Part shown: in pieces, positions 275 through 5,986 of the stretch | Layout: each line of letters starts with the position of its first letter | Numbering within the stretch: the stretch's first letter is position 1 | Source: an uncultured Alphaproteobacteria bacterium | GTDB lineage: Bacteria; Pseudomonadota; Alphaproteobacteria; Caulobacterales; Parvularculaceae | NCBI GenBank assembly: GCA_938003575.1 | Contig: CALKYG010000394.1 | Coordinates: forward strand, 1-5,986 | Reading direction: 5' to 3' | DNA: 5,986 nt | Position numbers and translations under genes: made by a program | Notes under the pieces: model-generated | Told to the model about the DNA's origin: nothing | The model's input: only the letters and a program-made list of their open reading frames with translations | Databases searched by the model: none

Positions 275-1651
275 CTAGAAAGTGTCGAGATAGCTCTCAT
301 ATTCGAAATCGGTGACGCGCCGGTCGGCGACGCTGATTTCCTGCCGCTTCAACGCCGTGAAAACCCGCGTCATCAGCTCGCCGAATGCGGGCGCGAGAAC
401 AGGCCCCGAGGCGAAGGCGTCAAGCGCCGCGCGCCAGCCGAGCGACAGTCTCGGCGCGTCGGATTTGTAAGCGTTGCCTTCGAGCGCCGGCGGCGGCGTC
501 AATTTGTTTTCGATCCCGTAAAGCGCGCCGGCGAGCATCGCGGAAAGCACGAGATACGGATTGGCGTCGGCGCCCGAAACGCGGTGTTCAAAACGGCGGT
601 TGGCGCCCGTGTCGGTCGGGATGCGGATCGCCGCCGTCCGGTTTTCATACCCCCACGTCGCCCGCGTCGGCGCATGCGATGAGTCCTGAAAGCGCCGCCA
701 TGAATTCATATGCGGCGCGAAAAAGATCATCGCTTCGGGCGCTGTCGCTATCAGTCCCGCGATCGCGTTCATGAACAGCGCGCCGCCTTTATCGCCGTCG
801 CCGTCGAAGGCGTTTTCGCCTTTGTCGTCGATCATGCTCATGTGCACATGCATGCCGTTTCCCGGCAGGTCGCCGAAGGGCTTGGCCATGAACGAGCCGA
901 GCAAGCCATGCCTGGCGGCGACGCCCCTGATCGCGCGTTTCAGCAGGATGGCCTGGTCTGCGGCGACAAGGATGTCGGCCTGATGTTTGAGATTGACTTC
1001 AAACTGGCTCGGCCCGGCCTCAATGACCGCGGTGTCGAGCGGCAGGCCCTGCGCCTCACATGCGGCGTAGAGGTCGGAAAAAAAGTCGGAATAGGCGTCG
1101 ATCTCGCTCATCGCATAGACGCGGCCGTCAATGACGCGGCGTCCGGAAAACTTGTTCGGCGGCGTCAGAGGCCTGCCGTTCGCGTCGGACTGTCCGGAAA
1201 GGAGGTAGAACTCAAGTTCGAGCGCCGCGACGGCGCGCAGGCCCTTTGCCGCCAACCGCCGCCGCATTTCAGCGAGAAGCTGTCTTGGATCGGCGAGAAA
1301 CGGCGACCCGTCGGCCTCGCACAACATCATCAGCGATTGCGCCGTCGGCTCTTTCGACCACGGAACCGGAACGAGGGCGGGCGCGACGGCCTCGCATAGC
1401 CCGTCGGTATCGCCGGTGTCGACGACAAGCCCGTTGTCGAAAACGTCCGAGCCCCACACGTCGACGCCGATCAGCGATCGCGGCAAGCGAAGACCAGGCT
1501 CGAAAAGCTTGATCGCCGATTTCGCGGGAAGCCGCTTGCCGCGGATAACGCCGTTCAGATCCGTCAAGAATGCATCGACGAATTTAACGTGCGGCGACGC
1601 TTTCAGGAACATCCGCGCGTCTTCGGCGAGTTTTGCAGCCTGTTCCGACAT
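275..1651 (-). CDS. puuA: Glutamine synthetase family protein, PuuA-like gamma-glutamyl-amine ligase (paralogue 1, 458 aa)
   Basis: This is a full-length type I glutamine-synthetase fold. Metal and substrate motifs are all in place: ELEF (E145, E147), EAGPSQFE (E211, E218), GNGMHVHMS (H268), NSWRRF (R320), ENRTAAIRIP (336-345) and RFEHR (R353, E355, R357), followed by ANPYL (363-367). The N-terminal half lacks the DGSS loop that forms the ammonium site of true GlnA, and the C-terminus lacks the NLYDL adenylylation motif. It ends instead in a DFEYESYL-type tail, as in PuuA-like enzymes. It is therefore expected to use ATP to join the glutamate side-chain carboxyl to an amine such as putrescine, not to make glutamine. 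It sits 24 bp after the aminotransferase and 5 bp before the PuuB-like oxidase. The ATG at 1651 has AAGGGA 11 nt upstream, a slightly long spacing. The next in-frame ATG, at codon 14, would still leave the core intact. The exact amine is unknown. Confidence 0.9.
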   Translation of the reverse strand: MSEQAAKLAEDARMFLKASPHVKFVDAFLTDLNGVIRGKRLPAKSAIKLFEPGLRLPRSLIGVDVWGSDVFDNGLVVDTGDTDGLCEAVAPALVPVPWSKEPTAQSLMMLCEADGSPFLADPRQLLAEMRRRLAAKGLRAVAALELEFYLLSGQSDANGRPLTPPNKFSGRRVIDGRVYAMSEIDAYSDFFSDLYAACEAQGLPLDTAVIEAGPSQFEVNLKHQADILVAADQAILLKRAIRGVAARHGLLGSFMAKPFGDLPGNGMHVHMSMIDDKGENAFDGDGDKGGALFMNAIAGLIATAPEAMIFFAPHMNSWRRFQDSSHAPTRATWGYENRTAAIRIPTDTGANRRFEHRVSGADANPYLVLSAMLAGALYGIENKLTPPPALEGNAYKSDAPRLSLGWRAALDAFASGPVLAPAFGELMTRVFTALKRQEISVADRRVTDFEYESYLDTF

Positions 1652-1675
1652 CAGCTTTCAGGTCCCTTGCAGGTC

Positions 1676-3052
1676 TCAAGCGTTGGCGACGTCGCGCAGG
1701 GTAAGGTCCAGCGCCCGCTTTACAAGGGTGAAAAGCTCGTCGATCTCGCTGTCGGATATCACCAGCGGCGGGCAAAGGAACATCGTCTCGCCGACCGCGC
1801 GCATCACCACGCCCGATTCAAAGCAATGGCCGCGGCAAATCACGCCCGTCTCGCCGGACGCCGAATAACGCTCTTTCGTTTCCTTGTTCCTGACAAGTTC
1901 AATCGCGCCGAGCAAGCCGACGCCGCGGGTCTCTCCGACAAGCGGATGATCCTGAAGCTCATTCAATCGCGCCTGAAACCGCTCTGAGGCGGCCCGTCCG
2001 CGCGATCCGACGAGTTCCTTTTCTTCGATCATCTGAATGTTCTTGATCGCGACGGCGCAGGCCACCGGATGACCCGAATACGTATAGCCGTGCGCCATTT
2101 CGGAATCGGACTGAATGATCGGCTCCGCCATCCGGCGGCCGAGCGCGACGGCGGAAATCGGCTGGTATCCGCTCGACATGCCTTTCGCCATCGTCATGAG
2201 GTCTGGCGTCACGCCGTAGGTCTGGCACCCGAACCACGAACCGGTGCGGCCGAAGCCGCAGATGACCTCGTCCGACCACAGAAGAATGTCGTATTTCCGG
2301 CAGATGCGCTCAATTTCCGGCCAATACCCGTCAGGCGGCGTCATCAGGCCGCCCGCGCCCATGACCGGCTCGCCGATGAAAGCGGCGACATTCTCCGGGC
2401 CGAGTTCAAGGATCTTGTCCTCAAGGGCCTTTGCGCAGCGTTTTGCAAAATCGCTCTCGCTCTCGCCGGCGCTTCCATATTGATAGTAGCACGGCGTCGG
2501 CCCGATATGATGAATGCGGGGCAGGGGCAGGTCGAATATGCCCTGCATGAACGGAAGACCGGAAAGGCTCGCGCCCGCGACGGTCGATCCGTGATAAGCC
2601 CGCTGGCGGCTGATGATCGCCTTCTTGTTCGGCTTTCCCATCAGATTCCAGTAATACCAGATCAGTTTAAGCGCGCTGTCGTTCGCCTCCGACCCTGAAG
2701 ACGAGAACAGAATCTGATCGACGCCTGCGGGCGTTTTGGACGCGATGAGCGCAGCGAGTTCGGCGGCGTAGGGCGTCGTCGTCTGGAAGAACAGATTGTA
2801 ATAGGGGAGTTTCTTCAACGTGTCGTAAGCGGCGCGGGCCAGTTCGTCGACGCCGTAACCGAGCTGCACGCACCACAGACCGGCCATGCCGTCGAGTATC
2901 TTGTTCCCTTCAGAATCGTAAATATACACGCCTTCGGCGTGCGTAATGACGCGCGGCCCCTTTTCCCGGAGGTCATGATGAGTCGTGAACGGGTGAAGGT
3001 GATTGGCGCTGTCCAGCGCGCGAACGTGCTGCGTGTAGTTGGAAAAAGTCAT
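1676..3052 (-). CDS. Class-III PLP-dependent aminotransferase, putrescine/omega-amine:pyruvate type (SpuC-like, 458 aa)
   Basis: A complete fold-type I, class-III aminotransferase. SSSGSEAND (117-125) binds the PLP phosphate, D261 in LLWSDEVICGFGRTG pairs with the PLP ring nitrogen, and K290 in TMAKGMSSGYQP is the Schiff-base lysine. GLWCV (W60), YHGST (Y153) and VVMRAVGE (R418) match the active-site W, Y and carboxylate-flipping arginine of amine:pyruvate omega-transaminases such as that of Chromobacterium violaceum. It probably moves an amino group from a diamine or omega-amino acid to pyruvate, giving an aldehyde and alanine. In this operon, putrescine or a related amine is the natural guess, with beta-alanine as an alternative. 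I chose the ATG at 3052, which begins MTFSNYTQHV, because family proteins start there. An upstream in-frame start at 3121 would overlap the end of the preceding ligase and add 23 unrelated residues. The Shine-Dalgarno signal is weak (GGA, 8 nt upstream). Confidence 0.92.
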   Translation of the reverse strand: MTFSNYTQHVRALDSANHLHPFTTHHDLREKGPRVITHAEGVYIYDSEGNKILDGMAGLWCVQLGYGVDELARAAYDTLKKLPYYNLFFQTTTPYAAELAALIASKTPAGVDQILFSSSGSEANDSALKLIWYYWNLMGKPNKKAIISRQRAYHGSTVAGASLSGLPFMQGIFDLPLPRIHHIGPTPCYYQYGSAGESESDFAKRCAKALEDKILELGPENVAAFIGEPVMGAGGLMTPPDGYWPEIERICRKYDILLWSDEVICGFGRTGSWFGCQTYGVTPDLMTMAKGMSSGYQPISAVALGRRMAEPIIQSDSEMAHGYTYSGHPVACAVAIKNIQMIEEKELVGSRGRAASERFQARLNELQDHPLVGETRGVGLLGAIELVRNKETKERYSASGETGVICRGHCFESGVVMRAVGETMFLCPPLVISDSEIDELFTLVKRALDLTLRDVANA

Positions 3053-3087
3053 GGCCGGGTTCCAGGTGCGTTGGGTTGAGGCGGCGA

Positions 3088-4437
3088 CTAGACGTTCGTC
3101 ATCAGGAAACGGACGTCCCACGGACTTAACACCGACGATCGGTGTTCATATTCGGAGCGCTTGATCGTGCAGTAGGTGTCGACGAAGCTCGACCCCAGCG
3201 CGTCGCGCAGCGGTTTTGATTTCGCGAAGGTCTCGACGCTGTCGATCAGGGATTTGGGGAGCGGCCGCTCGCGGTCCTGGTATCCTTCCCCGAGATATTC
3301 CTCCCGCGGTTCGACCTGATTCATCATGCCGATATAGCCGCAAACGAGCGATGCGGCGACGCCGAGATAAGGATTGATGTCGGCGCCGGCTATCCTGTTC
3401 TCCACGCGGCGCGCTTCAGGATTGGAGGCCGGGACGCGAAGGCCGACGGTCCGGTTCTCACGGCTCCAGTGCGTGTTTGTCGGCGCGCTCATATAGGCTT
3501 CAAACCGGTTGAACGAATTCGTGTACGGCGCAAGGAGCGGCATCGCGGCCGGAAGATAGGCCTGAAGTCCGCCTATATAGTGACGGAACAGCTCACTGTC
3601 GGTTCCGTCCTCGTTCGCGAAAATATTGCGCCGCGTTTTCGTGTCGATGACACTCTGGTGCATGTGAATGGAGCTGCCCGCGCAATTCGCATAGGGCTTG
3701 GCCATGAAGGTCACGAACATGTTGTGACGCAGCGCCACCTGCCGGGTCAGCCTTTTGAAGAGGAACATCTGGTCGGCGACGTTGATCGCCTCATTGTGCC
3801 GGATGTTAACTTCAAACTGACAGGGACCGTCCTCATGAATCAGCGTGTCGAGGTCGACGCGCTGAATCTCGCAGAACTGATACAACTCCTCCCACAAACG
3901 GTCGAATTCATCGATGGCGTCGAGGCTGTAAACATGCTGGCCGAATTCCGGCCGGCCTGAGCGCCCCTCCGGCGCGCGCGGCTCAAGAATGACGTCCTTG
4001 AACCGTTCGATCAGGTAGAATTCGATTTCGGGCCCGACGATCGGCGTCCACCCTTGCTTCGCATAGAGATCAACGACGTTGCGCAGGACCTGGCGCGGCG
4101 CGAAGGAGGTCGAGACGCCCTGGTCGGTCGTGCTGTCGCAGATCAGGCAAGCCGTCGGGTCGTTGCTCCATGGGGCGAGGTGCAATGTCGACAGGTCCGG
4201 AACCATCACAAGGTCGCGCTCGGTCGTGACGACATCGTTCGTGAACTCGATCTCGCCATGCACGCTGATCGCATAGACCGTTTCCGGTATGCGAAGGCTG
4301 TTGTTTTTCATGCCGTTCAGGAAAAGCGCCGGGGTCATCGTCTTTCCGCGCGCCGCGCCAGTCATGTCGGGAACGAGGCAGGCGACATCGGTGACGCGAT
4401 GGCGCCGGAGCCAATCTTCAAGTTCTTTCAAGTCCAT
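3088..4437 (-). CDS. puuA: Glutamine synthetase family protein, PuuA-like gamma-glutamyl-amine ligase (paralogue 2, 449 aa), first gene of the operon
   Basis: This is a second complete type I glutamine-synthetase-like ligase, clearly different in sequence from the one at 275-1651. It shows GPEIEF (E137, E139), HEDGPCQFE (E202, E209), SSIHMHQS (H258), NSFNRF (R311), ENRTVGLRVP (327-336), RRVENR (R344, E346, R348) and INPYL (354-358). The usual NGSGMH is changed to CAGSSIH, a variant seen in amine ligases of this superfamily. The DGSS ammonium loop and the adenylylation tyrosine motif of housekeeping GlnA are missing. Expected chemistry is ATP-dependent gamma-glutamylation of an amine in the cytoplasm. 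The gene leads the operon. The ATG at 4437 is preceded by GAGGCGG about 5-11 nt upstream, an acceptable ribosome site. It faces the divergent GntR/FCD gene across 352 bp. Whether it shares substrates, or even a mixed oligomer, with the second ligase is not visible. Confidence 0.9.
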   Translation of the reverse strand: MDLKELEDWLRRHRVTDVACLVPDMTGAARGKTMTPALFLNGMKNNSLRIPETVYAISVHGEIEFTNDVVTTERDLVMVPDLSTLHLAPWSNDPTACLICDSTTDQGVSTSFAPRQVLRNVVDLYAKQGWTPIVGPEIEFYLIERFKDVILEPRAPEGRSGRPEFGQHVYSLDAIDEFDRLWEELYQFCEIQRVDLDTLIHEDGPCQFEVNIRHNEAINVADQMFLFKRLTRQVALRHNMFVTFMAKPYANCAGSSIHMHQSVIDTKTRRNIFANEDGTDSELFRHYIGGLQAYLPAAMPLLAPYTNSFNRFEAYMSAPTNTHWSRENRTVGLRVPASNPEARRVENRIAGADINPYLGVAASLVCGYIGMMNQVEPREEYLGEGYQDRERPLPKSLIDSVETFAKSKPLRDALGSSFVDTYCTIKRSEYEHRSSVLSPWDVRFLMTNV

Positions 4438-4551
4438 TGTTTCCGCCTCGAGGGCGCGCCCGAAGGGGAGCCGCTCTTGACTTTACACTCCCGCCGACGC
4501 GGCCCGCGCGCGATCGCCTTTTCCCGCTCGGGGCCGGCGTTGCAGCGATGG

Positions 4552-4579
4552 TGCGCCAAAGCGATATTGGATCGGCGCA
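4552..4579. repeat. Nested dyad, TGCGCC/GGCGCA arms enclosing CCAA/TTGG
   Basis: TGCGCC (4552-4557) is matched by its exact complement GGCGCA (4574-4579). Inside, CCAA (4556-4559, sharing CC with the outer arm) is matched by TTGG (4567-4570). It lies in the 5' leader or promoter zone of the minus-strand operon, so it may be a protein site or a leader-RNA hairpin. The spacing between arms is long (16 nt for the outer pair), and chance occurrence in GC-rich DNA is quite possible. Confidence 0.25.
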
Positions 4580-4616
4580 AGGAGAACGTGATCACAGTTA
4601 GCCCGGCCCGCGGAAA

Positions 4617-4644
4617 TTGGCAAGCGGATAGGATATTCTATGAA
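4617..4644 (+). promoter_or_regulatory. Candidate sigma-70 type promoter for the regulator gene
   Basis: TTGGCA (4617-4622) and TATGAA (4639-4644) are separated by 16 bp and each match the consensus at four or more positions. Transcription would begin near 4651, leaving a leader of about 140 nt that contains the stem-loop at 4726-4745. The spacer and the -10 overlap the palindrome at 4628-4641, an arrangement that suits autorepression. This rests on consensus matching only, and alphaproteobacterial promoters are often degenerate. Confidence 0.3.
4628..4641. promoter_or_regulatory. Imperfect 14-bp palindrome, candidate regulator operator
   Basis: ATAGGATATTCTAT reads as its own complement at 12 of 14 positions (ATAG-n-ATAT-n-CTAT). 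It is the most AT-rich short stretch in the divergent region and overlaps the candidate plus-strand promoter as well as a TAGAAT hexamer on the minus strand. GntR/FCD dimers bind short palindromes of this size, so this is my first choice for the operator of the adjacent regulator. No second copy was noticed in the window. Confidence 0.35.
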
Positions 4645-4725
4645 AAACAGATAGTTGCGGGCGTTTTTTCCCGGCGGCATTTCTGACAGATGGCCGCGGC
4701 CGCAGCGTGAAATATCATTACGAAA

Positions 4726-4745
4726 CGGCGTCCTGCGGGACGCCG
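4726..4745 (+). promoter_or_regulatory. Perfect 8-bp stem-loop with TGCG loop in the regulator leader
   Basis: Arms CGGCGTCC (4726-4733) and GGACGCCG (4738-4745) are exact complements around the four-base loop TGCG. In plus-strand RNA the loop would be a UNCG-type tetraloop closed by C-G, which is unusually stable. It lies 44 bp before the regulator ATG. No run of T follows on the plus strand (CTTCGCTTGATTT), so it is not a standard intrinsic terminator. On the minus strand only TTTCGT follows. It may stabilise the leader, attenuate the regulator, or be a dispersed genomic repeat. Confidence 0.5.
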
Positions 4746-4773
4746 CTTCGCTTGATTTGAGCGCATTTCGCGC

Positions 4774-4787
4774 GAATCGTCCGATTC
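4774..4787. promoter_or_regulatory. Inverted repeat abutting the regulator start codon
   Basis: GAATCG and CGATTC are exact complements separated by two bases and end 2 nt before the ATG at 4790. They occupy the place where a Shine-Dalgarno sequence would be expected, and none is seen. The repeat overlaps another short palindrome, TTCGCGCGAA (4767-4776). It could be an autoregulatory operator or fold over the start. The arms are short, so chance is a real alternative. Confidence 0.3.
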
Positions 4788-4789
4788 CG

Positions 4790-5497
4790 ATGGCGATGAA
4801 AAAAACAAAGTCCTCAAAGGCGGCGAAAAGGGCTCGAAAACGGGCGCCTGTCGTTCACGAAGAGGTCTATGCGCGCCTGCGCCGCGCAATCATTGAAGGA
4901 CAACTCGAACCCGGGCGTTCGCTGTCGGTGCGCACGCTCGCCGCGCAGTTTCATGTCAGCGCCATGCCGGCGCGCGAGGCGATAAGGCGCCTTGTCGCGC
5001 TCGGCGCGCTTGAATTGACGCAGACACGGCGCATCAGCGTCGCCCGCATGACATCGCAGAAGGTTGCGGAATTGACCGACGCGCGCGTGCCGCTCGAAAC
5101 GGGACTGGCCCTTCGCGCGCTCAAGAAGACCGAGGGAAAACCGAAGGTCAGGGCCGGCCTCGTCTCGAAACTGTCGAAGATCGACGACAAACTCGACGCC
5201 GCGATTTCATGCGGCGACGTCGCCGCCTATTCCAAGGCGAACAGCGAGTTTCATTTTGCGTTGTACGAGGCGGCAGGCGCGCCGACGCTCCTCGGCGTCG
5301 TCGAAGGCTTGTGGCTTCAGGTCGGCCCGTTCATGCGCGTGGTCCTTTCCAATTTGGGCACCGCCGATCTTGTTGATCAGCACAAGGAGGCGATCGACGC
5401 AATTTCGGAAGGAGATGCGCGCAAACTTGAAAAAGCGATAAGCCGCGACATCGCGGAAGGAATGAGAAATATCAGCGAAGCCCTCAGAAACTCCTGA
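4790..5497 (+). CDS. GntR-family transcriptional regulator, FCD (FadR-C) subfamily, 235 aa
   Basis: The N-terminal winged helix-turn-helix spans about residues 22-90. Its GntR signature runs from SLSVRTLAAQF (44-54) through SAMPAREAIRRL (57-68) to LGALE (71-75). The remainder is an all-helical FCD ligand domain (about 95-230) with the characteristic NSEFHF (N151, H155) and DQHKEAIDAISEGD (H198). In metal-binding FCD proteins a third histidine lies 22 residues after the second; here that position is D220, so metal binding may be altered or lost. Ahead of the HTH is a very basic tail, with 9 Lys/Arg in residues 4-18. I chose the ATG at 4790; the ATG at 4796 is equally possible. The frame also runs back to a TTG at 4655, but that would code through the stem-loop and has no family similarity. 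Divergent placement suggests it controls the amine operon, probably as a repressor released by a pathway metabolite. The ligand is unknown. Confidence 0.9.
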   Translation: MAMKKTKSSKAAKRARKRAPVVHEEVYARLRRAIIEGQLEPGRSLSVRTLAAQFHVSAMPAREAIRRLVALGALELTQTRRISVARMTSQKVAELTDARVPLETGLALRALKKTEGKPKVRAGLVSKLSKIDDKLDAAISCGDVAAYSKANSEFHFALYEAAGAPTLLGVVEGLWLQVGPFMRVVLSNLGTADLVDQHKEAIDAISEGDARKLEKAISRDIAEGMRNISEALRNS

Positions 5498-5503
5498 AGG
5501 CGG

Positions 5504-5848
5504 TCAGTCGGCGGCTCTGCTGAAAACCTTTTCGCCGGCGAACCAGGTCTCAAGCGCGTTCGTCTCGCTGATCGCTTCCGTTTGCCCGGATTCGGCGAGC
5601 GCAAAGATATCCTGGTCGACGATGACGAAATCCGCCTTCTTACCGGACTCGATGGAGCCGACCGCCGCATCCTGCTTCAGCGCTCTCGCCGCATTGATCG
5701 TATAGGCGTCGACGGCGTCGAAAATTGACAAGGATTCTGACGCGTTCAGCGCGCCGGCCTCGAATATGTCGCGGCTCACGGCGCCCTCGATGTTCACAAA
5801 CGGACGCGGATCGCGCGTATCGACCGTCGCGCCCGACCCGGCAATGAT
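5504..5848 (-). CDS. YtcJ-like amidohydrolase (amidohydrolase family 3), C-terminal fragment of about 114 residues
   Basis: This is the C-terminal end of a metal-dependent amidohydrolase, stop at 5504-5506. Recognisable family elements, in order, are DTRDPRPFVNIEGAVSR, then SLSIFDAVDAYTINAARAL, then VGSIESGKKADFVIVDQDIF, then ETWFAGEKVF. The last blocks belong to the small beta domain that closes the family's TIM barrel. Family members hydrolyse C-N bonds in cyclic or acylated amines; the substrate cannot be told. The usual catalytic GSD before this segment reads GSG, which is either divergence or part of the disturbed upstream sequence. All of the barrel carrying the metal histidines is missing: about 5848 the sequence changes to an unrelated membrane-protein type. 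The gene converges on the GntR gene with only 6 bp between stop codons and no room for a terminator between them. Identity as an amidohydrolase C-terminus is firm; the 5' boundary is uncertain by about 10 bp. Confidence 0.82.
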   Translation of the reverse strand: MIAGSGATVDTRDPRPFVNIEGAVSRDIFEAGALNASESLSIFDAVDAYTINAARALKQDAAVGSIESGKKADFVIVDQDIFALAESGQTEAISETNALETWFAGEKVFSRAAD

Positions 5849-5986
5849 CACGCCGCCCGACGCCGACAGCAGCATGAGCACGTAGACCTCGGGGCCGTCC
5901 ATGTCCTCGCGGCGGACGTAGCCGTCGGCGAGCAGGGCGCACAGCACGACCGCGGCGGCGATGACCACGGTGACGAAGACCGAGAA
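5849..5986 (-). CDS. nuoN: NuoN-like (NADH-quinone oxidoreductase subunit N) internal fragment, fused in frame to the amidohydrolase
   Basis: The same frame continues to the right edge, but its 46-47 residues are of a different kind. FSVFVTVVIAAAVVLCALLAD is a transmembrane helix, followed by a charged loop (GYVRREDMDGPE) and the start of another helix (VYVLMLLSASGGVI). Helix, Arg-Arg-Glu loop, G-x-E-x-Y-x-L-x-LLSASG is the pattern I recognise from NuoN, the proton-pumping membrane subunit of complex I, where ASANDL and the LFLGLE motif normally come next. Here that continuation is replaced by amidohydrolase sequence. Every codon of this stretch ends in G or C, typical of high-GC actinobacteria and unlike the adjoining sequence. 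It has no start codon in the window and no family-typical end, so it is only a piece. Assignment to NuoN is from memory of the family, without a search; another antiporter-like subunit such as NuoM is less likely. Confidence 0.6.

Follow-up and report, generated by a model that had tools for sequence, protein, structure and literature searches.

At the right end of the window, the whole stretch of 5,986 nucleotides analysed here, a preliminary description made from the letters alone had noted one minus-strand frame that reads as two unlike proteins: a membrane segment of NuoN, and then an amidohydrolase of the cytoplasmic YtcJ type. Such a frame raises the question of whether the two parts were fused in a living genome or were put together during sequencing or assembly.

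Reading frame and codon usage at the right end

The frame is single and uninterrupted as described, and it runs on the minus strand from 5986 to a stop at 5504, giving 160 residues. Its features are as follows.

5846..5986, minus strand: NuoN fragment of actinobacterial (Acidimicrobiales-like) type, 47 codons, truncated by the window end and, as far as sampled, foreign to the remaining window
5844..5860, minus strand: breakpoint zone, where the NuoN motif SASGG(V/L/I/M) overlaps the amidohydrolase motif AG(G/A)(V/I/T/M)
5825..5833, minus strand: amidohydrolase motif GSDAP, here read as GSGAT (residues 52 and 54); D and P are invariant in 10/10 relatives
5504..5845, minus strand: C-terminus of a YtcJ-type amidohydrolase (Amidohydro_3), 113 codons plus stop, native to the genome of the window

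Codons ending in A or T were recounted, and the earlier tally proved exact: 0/47 in 5986-5846 versus 25/113 beyond (Fisher p = 8e-5). The earliest such codon is that of residue 48 (ATT, 5845-5843). It had been taken to fall exactly where the protein type changes; the codon at 5845 is consistent with that, but it does not fix the exact base. Five coding stretches of the window (the two glutamine synthetases, the aminotransferase, the GntR regulator and the amidohydrolase tail itself) were used for comparison, and 71-78% of their codons end in G or C. Each of their 1480 sliding windows of 47 codons held at least one A/T-ending codon; runs without any were at most 25 codons long. In relatives, the matching upstream stretch of 46 codons contained 7-16 A/T-ending codons (13 loci in ten genomes). 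These results showed that the contrast in codon endings between the two halves exceeds chance.

Families and relatives of the two halves

Residues 1-47 were searched alone against protein candidates restricted to 0.55-1.75 times the query length, a range that leaves full-length NuoN outside its reach. Five NuoN pieces were returned among 23 candidates, all carrying PF00361, with identities of 81, 79, 74, 74 and 69%. The alignments covered 100% of the 47 residues in four pieces, which have 35-38/47 residues identical to the piece in the window, and 96% in the fifth (69%). All five align through SASGGV, four of them ungapped, and then continue with ANDLIVLF or a near variant, a continuation that the window does not have. 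The 160-residue query matched 20 proteins, nine on the amidohydrolase half and 11 on the NuoN half. The NuoN-half matches span 19-32% of this query, and 10/11 of these proteins carry PF00361 (for P0019 no Pfam domain is listed). Three of them bear NCBI names, one Acidimicrobiaceae bacterium and two Acidimicrobiales bacteria, at 67-78% identity. Acidimicrobiales belongs to the phylum Actinomycetota according to the taxonomy lookup, and it is these three named proteins that point to an actinobacterial origin. By similarity, residues 1-47 are NuoN with actinobacterial named relatives, which agrees with the earlier call for the membrane segment. They align to the actinobacterial type of this complex I subunit N (PF00361, TIGR01770); unlike NuoN itself, the window carries only 47 of about 500 residues.

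Profile and structure searches with the short piece gave little. A Pfam search of the 47 residues returned no PF00361 match, and the NCBIfam NuoN model gave a best E of 0.011 (range 0.011-0.055) at 14.6 bits; the model's cut-off of 519 is beyond the reach of a 47-residue fragment. The 47 residues alone matched nothing among solved structures (PDB, phmmer) or plasmids. The related proteins P0003 and P0002 were both identified as NuoN by solved structures, with 8qby_N as the best chain; presumably no close actinobacterial NuoN chain is among these matches. No NuoN was found in viral contigs searched with P0003. Plasmid matches to P0003 were also considered as a guide to the donor and set aside as uninformative: all 245 records, among them Sinorhizobium 71, Rhizobium 20 and Streptomyces 17, are below 60% identity.

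Residues 48-160 matched PF07969 with an E of 2.5e-16 (60.7 bits versus a gathering score of 29.7), and residues 48-155 are 65-79% identical to ten Parvularculaceae-type relatives, so the YtcJ-type call past GGVI in the preliminary description holds. Nineteen amidohydrolase loci were found in named public genomes, nine close (60-74% over the best segment) and ten distant (33-40%). The nine close loci are labelled Parvularculaceae (including Parvularcula), Marinicaulis or Alphaproteobacteria; Parvularculaceae is a family within Alphaproteobacteria (taxonomy lookup). The family of the closest locus gave some match in 56/62 genomes and a close one (60-74%) in ten. In 10/10 of these close genomes the amidohydrolase frame is open and stop-free through the breakpoint, at 678-746 codons from stop to stop. 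The stop-to-stop open frames of relatives, start codons aside, predict that the genuine amidohydrolase gene extends about 550-630 codons further upstream of 5845. The part present in the window is without about five sixths of the enzyme. It agrees with YtcJ-type amidohydrolases (Amidohydro_3, PF07969) in the C-terminal 113 residues and the gene neighbourhood, and differs from them in having a replaced upstream part and GSGAT in place of GSDAP.

Matches to the whole query that start before residue 48 had suggested that residues 1-47 might be amidohydrolase too. With all 160 residues, the matches start at residue 35 for PF07969 and at residues 20-44 for the nine close loci. This reading was rejected. 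Searched alone, the 47 residues gave only E 2.6 (37% over 27 residues) against the close relatives. Their highest score was 40 among 49 amidohydrolase frames (19 loci in named genomes plus 30 from the family of the closest locus, some genomes counted twice) and 29 among nine database amidohydrolases, versus 189 in the NuoN P0002. In addition, they break 15/20 of the columns that are invariant in the ten relatives, versus 3/52 in residues 48-160. Different families are represented in the two halves, and their nearest named relatives point to different phyla.

To locate the breakpoint, each residue of the frame was compared with both families, represented by eleven NuoN pieces and ten amidohydrolases. 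Preference for NuoN climbs to residue 43, is more or less flat across 43-47 and drops from 48. Both families can read G-G-V-I there, so the break can be placed only within about 5860-5844. A short Gly-Gly/Ala-Val-Ile stretch common to both families had been guessed from the letters, and it was recovered here at residues 43-47. The DNA common to both genes would be at most about 15 bases (5858-5844). The Val codon is GTG in the window but GTC or GTT in relatives that have GGVI here, a hint that the GTG comes from the NuoN side.

The three departures from invariant columns in residues 48-160 are at residues 52 and 54, adjoining the join, and at 136. When the relatives were treated in the same way by leaving one out, each showed 0-4 departures from otherwise invariant columns, none of them in residues 48-66. 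At residue 52 the window has G where 10/10 relatives have the Asp of the GSD motif, which we take to be a metal-site residue. Nine further amidohydrolase pieces were inspected; the motif was seen in six, always as GSDAP, and three had no match to the motif pattern. GSGAT may reflect poor sequence or read errors near a chimeric end, or the metal site could genuinely have been lost.

Origin of the junction

The NuoN fusion was found in none of the 49 amidohydrolase frames from the fetched loci, in none of the nine database amidohydrolases and in none of the 20 proteins matched by the 160-residue query. Among the matches listed in the family search, none starts before query residue 11. The match that reaches back to that residue, a weak amidohydrolase match in L038 (38%), was considered as a possible fusion and rejected, its score for the 47 residues being only 25.

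The in-frame NuoN-amidohydrolase junction is very probably a false join from sequencing or assembly; we infer both that it is an artefact and which step was responsible. The argument combines a cross-phylum piece of about read length, its place at the record end, the lack of the fusion in everything searched, and a stretch at the break that is compatible with both genes. The foreign piece extends exactly to the end of the record, the window end appears to be the contig end, and 129-143 bases would be about one short-read length. The likely path is by way of a chimeric read, or an erroneous step in the assembly graph, crossing a short stretch near GGCGGCGTGATCAT that the two genes may have in common. 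The assembler would then have lost support after about one short-read length, leaving a foreign tip on the contig. Assembler k-mers are usually longer than 15 bases, so a 15-base overlap would call for a chimeric read, not a graph error alone. Any join keeps the frame by chance in 1/3 of cases, and here the frame also follows from the common GGVI.

The preliminary description had named a wrong join at a contig end as the likeliest cause, an inference supported by the separate families and phyla of the two halves and by the uninterrupted frames of the relatives. Chimeric metagenome contigs and false joins between species likewise bring two unrelated pieces together at a short common stretch near a contig end. 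The present case does not differ from them in principle, except that the frame is kept and imitates a gene fusion. One paper covers misassemblies that link genomes through sequence they share, as well as tips in de Bruijn graphs (PMC8021871), and another covers false gene-event calls produced by misassembly (PMC6777429). Uncorrected, this contig end would enter records as a membrane-anchored amidohydrolase or a cross-phylum gene transfer. As a probable false join it is ordinary, and its importance is limited to annotation.

Real illegitimate recombination, in which actinobacterial nuoN DNA was inserted in the amidohydrolase gene or replaced part of it and destroyed the enzyme, is very unlikely. 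Horizontal transfer between phyla does occur, and the change from GSDAP to GSGAT beside the join is what relaxed selection would permit. However, the fusion is absent from all the amidohydrolase frames and database proteins compared, and the piece stops at the record end after about a read length. Moreover, 49/52 invariant columns of residues 48-160 are intact, which argues against general decay. It is slightly less probable still that a Parvularculaceae strain acquired the nuoN DNA by microhomology-mediated recombination inside the amidohydrolase gene, yielding an in-frame membrane segment on an enzyme tail deficient in its metal site; if true, this would be a case of between-phyla gene transfer through a very short common sequence.

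Recombination or misassembly within a single genome, joining the nuoN of the host itself to its amidohydrolase gene, is extremely improbable and already largely refuted. The host lineage does have nuoN, which scored above the family cut-off in 5/6 genomes searched (G001 had none above it). However, NuoN of these five genomes has only 14-17/44 residues in common with the piece in the window and is without SASGG, against the 35-38/47 of the four full-span pieces, and this argues that the piece is not a copy of the host's nuoN. Its third codon positions are also unlike those of host genes. Among 289 alphaproteobacterial genomes, six matched the 47 residues, at 31-51% identity; the loose first look of this search had no candidate in 12/20 of the unmatched genomes listed, so the result means no more than that a close copy was not encountered. 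As far as sampled, the NuoN piece would be foreign to the host lineage and not a copy of its own nuoN.

A true membrane-anchored amidohydrolase, formed by a new domain fusion, is hardly credible: the frame is open and residues 1-47 are largely hydrophobic, but most of the enzyme is missing, GSDAP is altered, and the absence of any such homologue from the frames, database proteins and search matches refutes it within the reach of the search. The earlier advice against annotating such a protein is upheld.

Gene neighbourhood of the amidohydrolase half

The genes that accompany the amidohydrolase in the window were compared with the nine close loci.

4655..5497, plus strand: GntR/FCD transcriptional regulator (PF00392 and PF07729), adjoining the amidohydrolase; same place in 8/9 close loci
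3088..4437, minus strand: glutamine synthetase-like protein (PF00120), 71-92% identity; 9/9 close loci
1676..3121, minus strand: class III aminotransferase (PF00202); 9/9 close loci
275..1651, minus strand: second glutamine synthetase-like protein (PF00120); 9/9 close loci

The order amidohydrolase, glutamine synthetase, aminotransferase, second glutamine synthetase is kept in all nine, which indicates a Parvularculaceae-type source for most of the window. Positions 275-5845 correspond to a cluster conserved in Parvularculaceae-type genomes, with two glutamine synthetase-like genes, the aminotransferase between them, the GntR regulator and the YtcJ-type amidohydrolase. This cluster resembles those for amine or polyamine utilisation, a function suggested by the families of its members. 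The space between amidohydrolase and glutamine synthetase showed no GntR match in one relative (L009 2699-4788), where the matches to these two genes lie about 380 bases apart.

Two of the listed frames probably begin too early. The true start of the GntR gene would lie further in than the listed start, with homology in relatives from residue 33-63. The listed frames of the aminotransferase and the upstream glutamine synthetase overlap by 34 bases (3088-3121). The aminotransferase also probably starts further in, its homology beginning at residue 23-33 in 8/9 relatives and at residue 1 in L009.

At the left end, positions 3-269 hold the 5' part of another minus-strand gene, truncated by the window end, whose product looks by eye like an FAD oxidoreductase, given a glycine-rich motif. 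It has a 73% match at the same place in L009, and the left end of the window therefore looks native.
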